Assembly: GCA_028281535.1 (NCBI GenBank)
Contig: JANQJS010000038.1
Coordinates: forward strand, 124,001 to 188,000
Source: Sedimentisphaerales bacterium
GTDB taxonomy: Bacteria > Planctomycetota > Phycisphaerae > Sedimentisphaerales > SM23-30
Direction: 5' to 3'
DNA: 64,000 nt
Part shown: piece by piece, positions 25,610-31,643 of the stretch
Layout: every line of letters begins with the position of its first letter
Numbering within the stretch: the first letter of the stretch is position 1
Made by a program: the position numbers and the translations under genes
The notes under the pieces: model-generated
Seen by the model: the letters and a program-made list of their open reading frames with translations, nothing else
Databases searched by the model: none
What the model was told of the DNA's origin: nothing

Positions 25610-28600
25610 TTATGGCAAGGTCAAGCATGGCCCTGAATTATCAGGTTGATTATTTAGTATGTCAGCTAGTTTTATTAAATCATTTAGGTCAATAATCCCA
25701 TCAGGCTTAAGTTCTTTAGAATCATTTGCTATATCTGCACAAGAAAGTTCTGGCGTGACAGGTGACATGCTGAAATTGGTTGGTGCTATTCTTAATAGAA
25801 TATAATTAATATCTTCCTCTGTAATGAGACCATCGGTATTTGGAACCATTTGTTTGTTGGCAACATCACCAAAGCACTCACATTCTGTTGGTGTTCTTCC
25901 AGCGGTATAAAGGGTTAATATTTCTGTGTTGGATAAGGCGCGGCCATATAGTCTAACATCATCTATCATTCCTTCAAAATGTTGGTCCCGCGTGGCTGAA
26001 TAGTTTCCGATTTCTACATTTGCAGCACTAGCTGTATCAATAGCAAATGAGTCACCTGGAATGATGGAATTTGTACTGTAGTATTCTATTTTTGTTGGAT
26101 GGCCATCAATGAATAATTTGATATCTTGTAATGTGGCTGAATCGTTTTTGTCTTCAAATTTATCAAAAGTGACTGCGACATGATGCCATTGATTATCACG
26201 TAGATCATTTTGAGTATCTATGACAAACGTATTAAGGATTTGTAATTTGAGTGAGCCAGGGTGCAATTCATTTGAAATACGCAGCCGCCAGTTTTGTTTA
26301 TTTAGCGTTTTGCTCCCCCAGGAAATTATATCTCCCCCCTTACTTGCTGTGTCGATTTTAATCCATGTTGCACAGCTTCTTGCTTTGGAAGAAATAACGC
26401 CTCTATAATTGTTTACTTCTATATAATCGTTGATTCCATCAAAAGACATTGCGCCATTTATTATACCGTCTTTTATGAAAGCTTGAAATGCGTCTGTGAC
26501 ACCTTGAATAGTGCCATGATGATGATTAAAACTGTTTGTAGCAATTTGGTTTTTTAGATTGTCAAATGTCCATAAATTGTCATAGTTTGCAAGGGAAACA
26601 GCTTTGATTTTTGCGTTTTTAGATTTGAATGTGACTTCGCCATTAATTACAGTCGAATCCCATTCTTCCAAAGTTATTGAGTCTGAAGAACTCAGTGAGA
26701 TATCTTTATTAATGTTAAGATTTTCCGTATAGACTCCCGGATGTATAACAATTGTGTCTTTGGTGGACGATTCATTAATCGCTTGCTGTATGCTATTATT
26801 TTTTAATCTTTTCCTTTTGTTATCCCAACCGGTATACCAGACGTCGTCTTTTTCATTTTTGGTACCTTTGTTGTTGACAATGCCTTGTGGGATTTCAGCG
26901 TTAACATATTTAAGCCAGTTGTATAACGTGTTTTTCATGGTTGTTGCTTTGCGTGGCATTTGGTCAATTAAGTTATGATTTTCGTAAATCTGACCATAAT
27001 TGTTTGGGTAATCTCTCTTGTTCGTATAAGCTTTATATACTGAATTCAAATCTTTATATTTTTTGATTAATTGAACAGGGTCAAACAGTTCATATAACTG
27101 ATATTGATAAAGATTGCCACATGGTGTACCACCACTACTAGTTTTAATGTCTGATAGAACGCTATCGGTCTCATACAATTTCATGAATTTGTAGCCGTTT
27201 TGTATGATGAGACTGTAAGGGGCAAGGACAAAGTAATGTGGTGAATGTATGAATATGGCACCATCATCACTTTTAGTCTCAGGGTCATTTATGCGAAGAA
27301 AATCAGAGGCATCATTGTCAAGAAGAGGTACGATGCTTTCCCCATCGATATCCTTATGTTTTGTCTTATTGCCAGCTAGTTCAAGAATGGTTGGAAAAAT
27401 ATCTGTTCCCACAATAGATTCTTTACATGTACTGTTGTGAGCGACAAGAGATTCATTGTTGGAATAGACAATGAAAGGTACACGTATTCCCCCTTCAAAT
27501 GCATAAGATTTTTGGTGTCGCAGTGGCGCATTAGATGTCCACATTTTTTTTCCCAATTCGGATTTACTCATGCCACCATTGTCGGATGTGAAAATGATAA
27601 TCGTGTTATTTGAAATATTATGATGCTCTAAACGTGCCATTATATAACCAAGGCTATTGTCTACAGATTTTGTCATTGCAGCATAATCAGGAGATTGGTG
27701 AATATTTTCAATTTTATTTCCATTATTTTTAAAGTAGTTGACATCTTGCTTTTTAGCTTGAATAGGTGAATGGACACCATAATGTGCCATGTATAAGAAA
27801 AATGGTTTTTTGCCTGGGTTCACATCAGAGTTTTGTGACATATCTATAAATTCTAATGCCCTGTGTGATAATGCATCGGTAAGATATGTTTTTTCAATGA
27901 ATTTGGTGATGCCATTGAAATTATAATCTGAATTATTATGAATCCATTCAGGATAATTTGCTGCAGGGTTTTCAAGATTTGGATAAATGGGTTTCCCGTA
28001 TAGTTGATGTTCGTCCCAGTTATTCAGGTTCCAATTTTTTTTACAACCGAGTTGGCCTTTAATACAGTTACCGTTTCGCCAATAATTGCGCCTTATTAAT
28101 CCATCTAACGTTCCACCAATTAGGTAGTCAAACCCAAGGGATGCGCCATCGTGGACGTGTAATTTACCAATCGAGCATTTTAAATACTCTTCTCCTAAAG
28201 CATCTGCTATCGTTGTTTCCTCTGAGGGTAAAAGTTGCCATGTTTGCCAGTCTGGTTCTGTGAAATGTTGTATCGGTAGGGATTTTTTGCGTTCTGCTTG
28301 ATTATATGTATTTGGGTTTAACGTTATCCCCAATCTTGCCGGGTATTTTCCTGTTAGAATCGAAGCTCTTGATGGTCCACAAAAAGGATAAGCGGAATAG
28401 GCATTGGTGAACCTCATGCCTTTTTGCCTCAGTTTAGCGATATTTGGTGTTTCATAGTAGGTGCTATCAAATAATTCCGCATCTGTAGGGCTGACTCTTT
28501 TTCCATTTACAAGTTTATATTTAGTCGGGTCGTCAGGATTTAATTCATGGCAACTAATTCCAGTCCAGCCCATATCATCAACAAGAAAAACAATGATATT

Positions 28601-28720
28601 AGGTGTTGAGGGGTGTTGTGCATGAATTTTTGCTGCTGCTGATAATAATAGAAACGCAAAAATGATATTTATCATCTTATTTTTATAGATGTACTTATCT
28701 GAATATGGATAGCCTAGCAT
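25610..28720 (-). CDS. Secreted sulfatase with beta-helix fragment, LamG domain and dockerin-like C-terminus
   Basis: 1036 residues. The hydrophobic signal lies at about 16-34 (ends AKIHAQ). AAGGTG five bases before the ATG at 28720 supports the longer start over Met16. The type I sulfatase core (about 38-620) has the metal Asp pair in FLVDDMGW (about 46-53) and the formylglycine motif CGPSR with Cys114, so it needs a maturase encoded elsewhere. Other sulfatase blocks are GKLHVHDGA, MAHYGVHSPI and FTSDNGG. Residues about 650-710 match the opening of the beta-helix module seen in the FG-GAP proteins (HPGVYTENLNI). A LamG-like domain follows (FDGINDYIEV, WIKIDTA, GMIDDVRLYGRAL; about 715-920), then two EF-hand/dockerin-like loops (NTDGLITEEDINYIL, KPDGIIDLNDLIKL). 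The likely target is a sulfated polysaccharide. Confidence 0.92.
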   Translation of the reverse strand: MLGYPYSDKYIYKNKMINIIFAFLLLSAAAKIHAQHPSTPNIIVFLVDDMGWTGISCHELNPDDPTKYKLVNGKRVSPTDAELFDSTYYETPNIAKLRQKGMRFTNAYSAYPFCGPSRASILTGKYPARLGITLNPNTYNQAERKKSLPIQHFTEPDWQTWQLLPSEETTIADALGEEYLKCSIGKLHVHDGASLGFDYLIGGTLDGLIRRNYWRNGNCIKGQLGCKKNWNLNNWDEHQLYGKPIYPNLENPAANYPEWIHNNSDYNFNGITKFIEKTYLTDALSHRALEFIDMSQNSDVNPGKKPFFLYMAHYGVHSPIQAKKQDVNYFKNNGNKIENIHQSPDYAAMTKSVDNSLGYIMARLEHHNISNNTIIIFTSDNGGMSKSELGKKMWTSNAPLRHQKSYAFEGGIRVPFIVYSNNESLVAHNSTCKESIVGTDIFPTILELAGNKTKHKDIDGESIVPLLDNDASDFLRINDPETKSDDGAIFIHSPHYFVLAPYSLIIQNGYKFMKLYETDSVLSDIKTSSGGTPCGNLYQYQLYELFDPVQLIKKYKDLNSVYKAYTNKRDYPNNYGQIYENHNLIDQMPRKATTMKNTLYNWLKYVNAEIPQGIVNNKGTKNEKDDVWYTGWDNKRKRLKNNSIQQAINESSTKDTIVIHPGVYTENLNINKDISLSSSDSITLEEWDSTVINGEVTFKSKNAKIKAVSLANYDNLWTFDNLKNQIATNSFNHHHGTIQGVTDAFQAFIKDGIINGAMSFDGINDYIEVNNYRGVISSKARSCATWIKIDTASKGGDIISWGSKTLNKQNWRLRISNELHPGSLKLQILNTFVIDTQNDLRDNQWHHVAVTFDKFEDKNDSATLQDIKLFIDGHPTKIEYYSTNSIIPGDSFAIDTASAANVEIGNYSATRDQHFEGMIDDVRLYGRALSNTEILTLYTAGRTPTECECFGDVANKQMVPNTDGLITEEDINYILLRIAPTNFSMSPVTPELSCADIANDSKELKPDGIIDLNDLIKLADILNNQPDNSGPCLTLP

Positions 28721-29437: not shown

Positions 29438-29452
29438 TGGCACGCCCGTTGC
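29438..29452 (+). promoter_or_regulatory. Near-perfect sigma-54 (RpoN) promoter
   Basis: TGGCACGCCCGTTGC matches the -24/-12 consensus TGGCACG-N4-TTGC at every defined base, with the invariant GG at 29439-29440 and GC at 29451-29452. The predicted start is near 29464, 35 bases before the small gene at 29499. It requires RpoN and an AAA+ activator encoded elsewhere. Confidence 0.85.
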
Positions 29453-29498
29453 TTAATAGTAATACCGTGTGGTTAAAAAATTTAGGAGACTCAGGAAA

Positions 29499-29759
29499 AT
29501 GTATTGTACGAATTTAGGGACTGGGACGCAAGTTCGTTTCAGACTCGGTAATGTAGTATGTCCGGATACGGATCAGCTATTTAACAATATAATAAATGAT
29601 TTTGAACTGGATGGTAAAATTGTATACTTCAGCGATTCAGGAGAGGCAAAAGATTATTATGCGATCGTTGAAGTGAAAGGTGTTACGATGCCTTTGGTTA
29701 TACCAGTACAACAGTTAGAAATTGGAATGGAGAAAATGACGGATTTAAAACATCCGTAA
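29499..29759 (+). CDS. Small hypothetical protein under sigma-54 control
   Basis: I chose the ATG at 29499 (86 residues) because CAGGAAA and AGGAGA precede it directly; an upstream in-frame GTG at 29469 would add ten basic residues. The sequence is strand-rich (GTQVRFRLGNVVCPDTDQLF, then GKIVYFSDSGEAKDYYAIVE and PLVIPVQQLEIG), like a small single-domain beta barrel. There is no signal peptide or membrane segment, so it is cytoplasmic. The two cysteines (C3, C22 of the chosen form) do not form an obvious metal site. I cannot assign a family. It has its own sigma-54 promoter and strong terminator, so it is a dedicated regulated transcript. Its neighbours are a sulfatase and a PEP-CTERM protein. 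Confidence 0.75.
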   Translation: MYCTNLGTGTQVRFRLGNVVCPDTDQLFNNIINDFELDGKIVYFSDSGEAKDYYAIVEVKGVTMPLVIPVQQLEIGMEKMTDLKHP

Positions 29760-29792
29760 TACATAAGCTTTTTATTTGCTCTCTCTCTCCCT

Positions 29793-29844
29793 CCCAGGTC
29801 GGTTGATTCACCTTGCTTTGAATTCAACCGCCTGGGTATTTTTT
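29793..29844 (+). terminator. Strong intrinsic terminator
   Basis: CCCAGG (29793-29798) pairs with CCTGGG (29831-29836). After a one-base bulge, CGGTTGA (29800-29806) pairs with TCAACCG (29824-29830), and an inner TTCA/TGAA extends the stem. TATTTTTTT follows. It ends the small sigma-54-driven transcript. Confidence 0.85.
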
Positions 29845-29951
29845 TAGCTAGAGATTGCATAAAGTAAATAACATCATTTTCTGTTGTCATTTATGTCGTA
29901 ACGTTTTTAAAAATTTGATTACAAATAAACATTATGGGGTTCAAATACATA

Positions 29952-30245
29952 ATGAATAGATTGAAATACTGCTTTATGATCGTTCTTGCTTTTGTAGCAT
30001 TACCGCATATAGATAATACAGCAACCTATGGCGATATGCAGCAAGCAAGGATTGCTGGTGTCAGTTTAGGAACTGATTCGCAAGTATTTGGCGGTTCTTT
30101 ATCAAAAGAGCCTCAAGTTTTACGTGCTGGATTTGTATACCCTCATTTTTCAACTATTCTTCTATTGTCGGTGGCATCTGTAGGAGCTATCATTTTTCGT
30201 CGTCGATTGACTGTGAAAAATGTTTTTAGTTATGTGAGGCGTTAG
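29952..30245 (+). CDS. Small exported or membrane protein of unknown function
   Basis: Read from the ATG at 29952 it has 97 residues; an ATG at 29934 would add six. A signal-like hydrophobic stretch (about 6-17) and a second one near the C-terminus (about 68-85, STILLLSVASVGAIIF) followed by RRR flank a short polar middle. The C-terminal helix plus basic end resembles a PEP-CTERM or LPXTG-like sorting end, but the PEP triplet is absent. The next gene (30282) encodes a clear PEP-CTERM protein 36 bp on, so the two may be functionally linked. No family is recognised. Confidence 0.6.
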   Translation: MNRLKYCFMIVLAFVALPHIDNTATYGDMQQARIAGVSLGTDSQVFGGSLSKEPQVLRAGFVYPHFSTILLLSVASVGAIIFRRRLTVKNVFSYVRR

Positions 30246-30281: not shown

Positions 30282-31088
30282 ATGAATCTTTTAAAAAACG
30301 ATCGTCAATCATTTCAACTTATTATTTTATATATTCTCCTAATCTGCAGCGATCTGGCTCAAGCGGCATTGTCAGATACTTTTCAAGATAATACCCCCCT
30401 GCCTCACTGGCAAATCATTGAAGATAATGGTTCACAATTAGGTATATCTGAGTCAAATCAACACGTTGAAATTATCAGCACCGGTGCAAGTAGCCCAATT
30501 GATGATGCTCTATTTCTGAGCAATGGCCCTGCGGGATTTACATTATCAACCAATGCTGATTTTAAATTCGAGATAGAACTTACGCTTTTGGCCTTCAATT
30601 CTGTAGGTGGGTTTGGCGACTCATTGGCCTTTGTTTTAGGGGTTGGTGAAGATCTTGATGGGCAAAATTCTGCTGCGATTGGTTTTGCGTTAGGTAATAC
30701 TGGCTTGGGAACATCAATGAATTTTGTTAGTTCATTTCGTGTGTCTGATACGCCAACAGTGTCAAATCTGTTGGAGGTTGCAGATCCATGGTCCGCTTCT
30801 AGTTTGAAGATGATGGTTGAGTATGATCAATCGCTTGACCATTTAACTTTGATTGTGCCTGAACTGGCCATTAGTGACACGTTAAACGGGCTTGTATTGG
30901 GCCAATGGAATGCTTCAGAATTAATGGTTTCTTTTGGTGCTCGCGGATCCGGATTCGCACTTGCCTCTGGCGATGCTGTATTTGATAATTTTAACATTTT
31001 ATTTGGAAATATTATACCAGAGCCAGCGACCATTTCATTGATAGGCTTGGGGGCTTTCGTTATGGTGAGACGTCGAACCGTTTGTTGA
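30282..31088 (+). CDS. PEP-CTERM sorting domain protein with lectin-like fold
   Basis: 268 residues. The N-terminal signal ends near residue 28 (DLAQAAL). The middle is strand-rich with a concanavalin/L-type-lectin-like rhythm (FKFEIELTLLAFNSVGG, LAFVLGVGEDLDG, AAIGFALG). The last 24 residues are a typical PEP-CTERM tail: PEPATISLIG, a hydrophobic helix, then RRR. Such tails are recognised by an exosortase (EpsH/XrtA), which must be encoded elsewhere. The protein is thus surface-displayed or incorporated in an exopolysaccharide matrix. AAGGGA precedes the ATG. Binding of a sugar is plausible but inferred. Confidence 0.85.
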   Translation: MNLLKNDRQSFQLIILYILLICSDLAQAALSDTFQDNTPLPHWQIIEDNGSQLGISESNQHVEIISTGASSPIDDALFLSNGPAGFTLSTNADFKFEIELTLLAFNSVGGFGDSLAFVLGVGEDLDGQNSAAIGFALGNTGLGTSMNFVSSFRVSDTPTVSNLLEVADPWSASSLKMMVEYDQSLDHLTLIVPELAISDTLNGLVLGQWNASELMVSFGARGSGFALASGDAVFDNFNILFGNIIPEPATISLIGLGAFVMVRRRTVC

Positions 31089-31163: not shown

Positions 31164-31643
31164 TTAGTAATGTGACCCCAGGGCGTCTATGGCACTTTTT
31201 AATGCCACGACGTAGGCGAGATCTGTATTTTGCTTGGTTTTCATCGCAGCAGACATGACGGCATGGTGGTCAGCTAATTTGCTCAAGTAGGTATCATATC
31301 CTTCTGAATCTTTTGCAACGGGTTTGATTTTTTGTGTTAGAAAATACTCTGCAACCACTGTAATGACATTTGATGCATGCTGCTCCTTGGCATGAATCCA
31401 TCGTGTTACTTGGTTGATAGATTTTGCATCATGTTTGCCACCTAATTCATTGATTAGTTTCATGGCTTTTTCAATGGTTGCAGCATCTTCTTTTAATCCG
31501 TTGATGCGGGCAGGATCATCGTAAATACCGCAGGGAACCTGACAATGGGCATCTGCAACGTTTGCGTCATTAGCAGATAAAAACATAATCCCAAGAGCGG
31601 TCAAAAGGCACATTGAAATGGTTGTAATAACGGAATTTTTCAT
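31164..31643 (-). CDS. sodN: Nickel superoxide dismutase with Sec signal peptide
   Basis: The protein disproportionates superoxide using a Ni centre bound by the N-terminal hook. It has 159 residues. The first 32 form a signal peptide ending ...VADA; residues 33-41 are HCQVPCGIY, the Ni-hook HCxxPCGxY with Cys34 and Cys38 as thiolate ligands and His33 as the required free N-terminus. The A-D-A/H boundary is an AxA-type signal peptidase site, so export cleavage would itself expose His33. The four-helix body (ITVVAEYFLTQKIKPV...HAVMSAAMKTKQ) fits the family. GGAG lies 7 bases before the ATG. It is divergent from bcp, another oxidative-stress gene; a TTGACA on the minus strand at 31725-31730 may be its -35. 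No separate SodX-type maturation protease gene is beside it. Confidence 0.95.
   Translation of the reverse strand: MKNSVITTISMCLLTALGIMFLSANDANVADAHCQVPCGIYDDPARINGLKEDAATIEKAMKLINELGGKHDAKSINQVTRWIHAKEQHASNVITVVAEYFLTQKIKPVAKDSEGYDTYLSKLADHHAVMSAAMKTKQNTDLAYVVALKSAIDALGSHY

Follow-up and report, generated by a model that had tools for sequence, protein, structure and literature searches.

A sigma-54-type locus of Planctomycetota encoding a small protein and a CU-rich RNA unit complementary to PEP-CTERM leaders

Results

The locus and its sigma-54-type promoter

The window, that is, the whole 64-kb stretch of DNA analysed here, contains a compact locus in which a small-protein gene is preceded by a sigma-54-type site and followed by a hairpin with a T-run (Table 1). 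A sequence-only reading of the locus had reported a near-perfect sigma-54 site in front of an 86-residue ORF. The site, TGGCACGCCCGTTGC, proved to be an exact consensus match. It conforms to the pattern TGGCAC-N5-TTGC with the invariant GG and GC 10 nt apart, and 46 nt separate its end from the ATG at 29499. No other exact match was found in the window, where the number of matches with up to two mismatches was at the chance level (13 versus 13.1). Throughout the 4.44-Mb genome, the exact pattern was found seven times, as against once for the reversed pattern. The genome also contains rpoN, the absence of which would, according to the earlier reading, have refuted its proposal. We infer a transcript start at about 29464.

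Exact sites were also located just 5' of genes for Hsp20, DnaK/Hsp70 and ClpB-like (Clp_N) proteins in the same genome (L001, L004 and L005, at C20:67673, C25:88721 and C45:85851). These positions suggest a sigma-54 heat-shock (stress) regulon in this planctomycete genome, and the inducing signal may be protein-folding stress.

Table 1. Positions of the features of the locus and of the neighbouring genes in the window
Feature	Position	Strand	Basis or remark
Sigma-54 (-24/-12) promoter TGGCACGCCCGTTGC	29438-29452	+	exact consensus, site kept in relatives, rpoN in genome
Ribosome-binding site AGGAGA	29484-29489	+	sequence
86-aa small-protein ORF	29499-29759	+	
Conserved CU tract GCTCTCTCTCTCCCTCCCAGG, predicted RNA pairing region	29778-29798	+	
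Stem 1, the covarying hairpin of the RNA unit	29793-29836	+	
Terminator T-run, probable transcript 3' end	29839-29845	+	sequence
103-aa ORF with signal-peptide-like start, C-terminal hydrophobic segment and Arg cluster	29934-30245	+	no Pfam match
PEP-CTERM protein gene; own leader without GA tract	30282-31088	+	
Large secreted sulfatase with laminin-G-like domain and dockerin-like end	25610-28720	-	
Nickel superoxide dismutase	31164-31643	-	

The small protein

The 86-aa protein had no match in Pfam, NCBIfam or the PDB sequences, in agreement with its earlier description as unrecognised. A single-protein scan of the named genomes with this sequence gave no match, and DUF1127 matched none of the 36 small proteins collected in this study. 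The conserved pattern of the family is V-F-L..CP(D/E)..G..SD.G..(F/Y)A(I/V)V.V.G(I/L)..P(L/I)(I/V)VP. The predicted fold (mean pLDDT of 76) would be a small beta-barrel, an assignment to which we attach low-to-moderate confidence. SH3/Tudor/KOW-like barrels were considered as relatives on the basis of a Foldseek search and were set aside, since the best E-value was 0.065 and no structural match was confident.

The RNA unit downstream of the small-protein gene

The earlier reading had treated the gene as a unit closed by its own strong terminator. The hairpin and the T-run are indeed strong (-25.1 kcal/mol, z -5.3), but the 3' part of the transcript is better described as a conserved and often tandem RNA unit. 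What the earlier reading had missed is a 21-nt CU tract in front of the hairpin, which is conserved across genera and begins about 19 nt 3' of the stop codon. The supposed terminator belongs to an undescribed RNA, each unit of which has an unpaired tract, GCUCUCUCUCUCCCUCCCAGG, followed by a covarying hairpin; the CCCAGG at the 3' end of the CU tract doubles as the 5' arm of that hairpin. Five genera of the family share the 21-nt tract without a change, others have a nearly identical one, and the reversed control gave no match. For most units, the predicted fold keeps the CU tract single-stranded, with the long hairpin after it.

In the training set, 92.6% of the cells of stem 1 were paired and seven of the ten pairs showed double changes, and none of 500 shuffles equalled the stem on the covariation score. 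In a retest with 61 matches at loci that the training set did not include, the corresponding values were 87.2% and 7/10, in an alignment that was fitted to the RNA model and is therefore biased to its structure; the signal was lost when the columns were slid by 1-3 positions. No covariance model of Rfam 15 matched the RNA unit at its gathering score. The weak sub-threshold matches, to NsiR1 (17.5 bits) and to miRNA and snoRNA families, were judged to be due to chance.

The window contains a single RNA unit, and its relatives contain one to five. Two tandem units were found in each of G007 and G011 and five, one of them degenerate, in G005; the MAGs OFTM371 and IP29b_bin.25 have four and five, respectively.

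Distribution and co-conservation

The named relatives found with the 21-mer are MAGs labelled Sedimentisphaerales, Phycisphaerae or Phycisphaerales. Two separate searches of 397 genomes belonging to the class were made, one with an RNA covariance model built from 20 units and the other with a protein profile built from eight sequences. The RNA model, the E-values of which are rough, matched 64 genomes, and the protein profile identified 34 loci in 32 genomes; 30 genomes were common to both. The two protein-bearing genomes outside the RNA matches have weaker units at the expected place. Conversely, an RNA unit without a detected small protein was found in 34 genomes.

Together with the loci of G011 and G012, the 34 profile loci give 36 small-protein loci in Phycisphaerae-related Planctomycetota. 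All 36 have one or more CU units downstream, and 35 have a sigma-54-type site upstream. Under the strict pattern, 25 of 32 loci had a site in the 300 nt upstream, compared with 0/32 for each of the reverse-complement, reversed and complement controls and a mean of 0.1 for shuffled sequences. Six of the seven loci that failed the strict pattern differ from it only in the T before GG, and the four further loci beyond these 32 have a sigma-54-type site too. The RpoN control proposed earlier for the small-protein gene is supported by the relatives and by the composition controls. The exception, L123, is the second member of a paralogous pair in G244; some 2 kb separates the two genes, which are placed around the units of one array. 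The two small-protein paralogues seen at L126 (G244:C30) have RNA units between them and after both.

Another family, f11, has a stand-alone single unit with a T-run and no detected protein in many genomes. As a side observation, the f11 unit AATCTTGCTCTCTCTCTCCCTCCCCAGGCTGGCG...CGCCAGCCTGGTTTTTT (L090-L094, L097 and L138) is almost invariant between genera and has, by eye, a sigma-70-like promoter. In the search of 13 genomes of the same family as the window, the Hfq model gave no match.

Outside the class, one of the sampled genomes of the phylum has the small protein and a sigma-54-like site, and no CU unit. This small-protein relative (L147) is preceded by the site AGGCACGGCGCTTGC and followed by a different repeat, AGATCTCCTGAGC...GCCAGA, which contains CUCCU.

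Complementarity to orthologous PEP-CTERM leaders

Near-matches to the 21-mer outside the arrays, within the family, were mostly antisense to the leaders of genes for exported (PEP-CTERM) proteins. Such antisense matches were found in G000 C10 (ending in PEPVTMTLLGLGGLGILSRRKKI), G011, G006, G008 and G007. The targets in the last four genomes belong to one orthologous PEP-CTERM family, the gene in G008 running off its contig at the 3' end. Among three more orthologues of the target, the GA tract is present in G001 and G005 and absent in G010; G010 is also a genome in which no small protein was detected. Two matches to the 21-mer in G007 do not follow the PEP-CTERM pattern and were rejected, one lying within a coding frame (C47) and the other 368 nt 5' of a transporter permease gene (C137).

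The CU tracts and leaders form computed duplexes of -22 to -47 kcal/mol; in G006, G008 and G011, runs of 19-21 contiguous pairs were seen. For the leaders of G001 and G011, the best predicted partner is the variant unit of the same genome. In most of the orthologous targets, about 180-230 nt separate the longest site from the start 3' of it, and in several target leaders the GA tract is placed in the loop or the upper stem of a predicted hairpin. A conserved unpaired tract is complementary to conserved target sites, as in a base-pairing sRNA.

The earlier reading had also connected the locus with PEP-CTERM genes, by way of a promoter shared under PrsK/PrsR and RpoN. These genes do appear as the predicted target, through complementarity between the RNA and their leaders. 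The shared promoter seems less likely as the mechanism: with a permissive pattern and in raw counts, only 2 of the 30 best-scoring PEP-CTERM genes of the genome had a sigma-54-like match upstream. By the same permissive pattern and raw counts, sigma-54-like sites were found 250-570 nt 5' of the target gene in six of the seven orthologues (for example L184, TGGCATGCCCATTGC in G005), so that the target and the RNA may be co-induced.

GA tracts across PEP-CTERM leaders

The enrichment of GA tracts was analysed in the genome of the window, with 42 PEP-CTERM genes that scored above the Pfam cut-off and for which a start could be chosen. The sequence GAGAGAGA was found within 250 nt upstream of 20 of these 42 genes, the starts of which were picked by a simple rule, and of none of 262 other genes, drawn from about one tenth of the genome (p = 5e-20). 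The antisense control gave one PEP-CTERM gene and no other gene. Genome-wide, a 13-nt GA pattern showed no enrichment over its control.

Twelve PEP-CTERM leaders are intrinsic terminators with a hairpin whose 5' arm contains the GA tract, as in ACCCAGCT-AGAGAGAGA...TCTAGCTGGGT-TTTTTTT; a single comparable element was found in 928,000 strand-bases of other sequence. Leader attenuators with a GA tract in this genome, such as L213, L215, L220, L223, L249, L254 and L257, might constitute a new class of cis-element. For isolated attenuators, the hairpin (-22 to -29) is more stable than the CU duplex (-15 to -18), and pairing would therefore need to win co-transcriptionally. In some leaders, the GA tract lies at the Shine-Dalgarno sequence.

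Of three PEP-CTERM leaders sampled in the distant genome G222, the array of which has five units, two carry the GA tract, one of them as a GA terminator; among other genes the count was 0/211. In G005 and G007, GA tracts occur mainly at the orthologous target and in few of the other sampled PEP-CTERM leaders (1/7 each for GAGAGAGA), which suggests that the size of the regulon differs between lineages. One PEP-CTERM gene was sampled for co-occurrence of the GA tract in G009, where no array was found.

Discussion

The features described above are, in our view, likely to represent a sigma-54-controlled operon that encodes a small protein together with 3'UTR-derived, Hfq-independent sRNAs pairing with PEP-CTERM leaders. 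A sigma-54-dependent transcript would encode the small protein and hold one pairing-RNA unit in its 3'UTR, or up to five in relatives. Each unit, an unpaired CU tract beside a stable hairpin, would probably be cut from the mRNA, and its CU tract would then pair in the cell with the GA tracts that PEP-CTERM mRNAs, which encode exported proteins, have in their 5' leaders. If such a tract is the 5' arm of a leader terminator, pairing would prevent the terminator from forming and turn the gene on. If it coincides with the Shine-Dalgarno sequence, translation would be blocked by the pairing. The two kinds of site are predicted to have opposite signs, that is, antitermination at GA terminators and repression at GA ribosome-binding sites. 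The small protein is probably an RNA partner, possibly in processing or annealing, because it is encoded with the RNA in all protein-bearing loci. With such targets, the RNA would probably govern the surface make-up of these bacteria.

It may be that the system extends over the whole class. A sigma-54 stress regulon would then produce tandem CU RNAs from the 3'UTR of the small-protein mRNA. Acting in trans, these RNAs would prevent termination at GA-hairpin attenuators, would block GA ribosome-binding sites and would in this way govern the surface proteome of the PEP-CTERM type; the small protein would serve as their partner, independently of Hfq. This broad proposal is tentative, and we give it somewhat less than an even chance. 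It is also conceivable that the GA tracts could be bound by a protein instead.

There is another possible interpretation of the complementarity. The CU units may be a generic anti-Shine-Dalgarno RNA that lowers the translation of mRNAs with purine-rich ribosome-binding sites during sigma-54 stress, like CcsR/cuckoo or LhrC, so that the PEP-CTERM matches are merely its most visible part. CCUCCC and CUCUCC are complementary to Shine-Dalgarno sequences, some leaders do have the GA tract there, and the exact sites at the hsp20, dnaK and clpB-like genes suggest a stress regulon. A generic RNA would not, however, account for GAGAGAGA in 20/42 PEP-CTERM leaders and 0/262 others, for complementarity that extends past the Shine-Dalgarno sequence to 21 nt, or for a longest site that lies far 5' of the start in most orthologous targets. 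We consider this interpretation unlikely.

The repeats could also act as a sponge that takes up a CU-binding protein, perhaps the small protein of the locus itself, according to the logic of CsrB/CsrA, with the GA tracts of the leaders unrelated. The tandem single-stranded CU tracts adjoining hairpins, the same small protein in all protein-bearing loci and its predicted small beta-barrel would all be in keeping with a sponge. Nevertheless, it leaves unexplained both the 19-21 bp of complementarity to orthologous PEP-CTERM leaders and the GA enrichment, and the 34 genomes with a unit and no detected protein also argue against it; we regard it as improbable. That the 3' element is a mere conserved terminator or stability element for the mRNA that encodes the small protein, and perhaps pairs with the ribosome-binding site of that mRNA, agrees with its position just past the stop codon in the window and its terminal T-run, but is very improbable in view of the up to five tandem units, the stand-alone units without a detected protein in f11, the near-invariant CU tract and its complementarity to other mRNAs.

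A comparable arrangement is known from Rhodobacter and other alphaproteobacteria, in which the ccaF1-CcsR1-4 operon (CIN1 locus, cuckoo RNA family) has a small protein co-transcribed with tandem homologous sRNAs, an alternative-sigma promoter and a terminator (PMC10253847). Common to both are the tandem homologous RNA units 3' of a small-protein gene, although the window itself has a single unit. The promoter of ccaF1-CcsR1-4 is of the RpoHI/HII type, whereas a sigma-54-type site was found here. CcaF1 is a DUF1127 protein, unlike the small protein described here. The CcsR RNAs carry a C/U-rich motif, as do the present units; these differ from CcsR in that the CU tract lies 5' of the stem and that no Rfam model matched. 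Further differences are the predicted targets (PEP-CTERM leaders), the host (Planctomycetota) and the lack of a detected Hfq in the family. The layout is equal, and no part is homologous by the tests run on sequence (sigma factor, DUF1127 and Rfam). The locus would therefore be the second case, unrelated to the first, in which a small protein and tandem CU-rich RNAs are encoded together, and this suggests convergence.

The multicopy CU-rich sRNAs LhrC1-5 of Listeria are another parallel (PMC4132741). They resemble the present units in their several copies and CU-rich pairing regions, and they regulate mRNAs of surface proteins, but they have no common sequence with the RNA unit as judged by Rfam. 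To our knowledge, LhrC1-5 have no small-protein partner, have another promoter and do not form a tandem operon with a conserved protein gene.

Sigma-54 and PEP-CTERM proteins have been found in one regulatory circuit before, in PEP-CTERM genes under RpoN/PrsK/PrsR control (PMC1569441) and in pepA of Aquincola, a PEP-CTERM gene with an RpoN promoter (PMC9850573). In those cases the PEP-CTERM genes have their own RpoN promoters, whereas the link proposed here is mainly a sigma-54-driven RNA complementary to the leaders. Our literature search for PEP-CTERM and sRNA in planctomycetes returned nothing on the topic and no pairing RNA for PEP-CTERM genes. Trans-acting sRNAs of Planctomycetota are hardly described, and none for this group was found in the literature searched. 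What the present analysis adds is an RNA family defined by a covariance model, together with its promoter class, its predicted regulon and, in genomes in which Hfq was not detected, a conserved small protein as its putative partner. How PEP-CTERM surface proteins are controlled, which until now has been tied to RpoN only via PrsK/PrsR, thereby becomes directly testable.

It is worth noting that, in the array of G005, a tiny PEP-CTERM gene lies between the RNA units (L042:6811-7053). In the window, the short signal-peptide ORF and the PEP-CTERM gene likewise lie 3' of the RNA unit.
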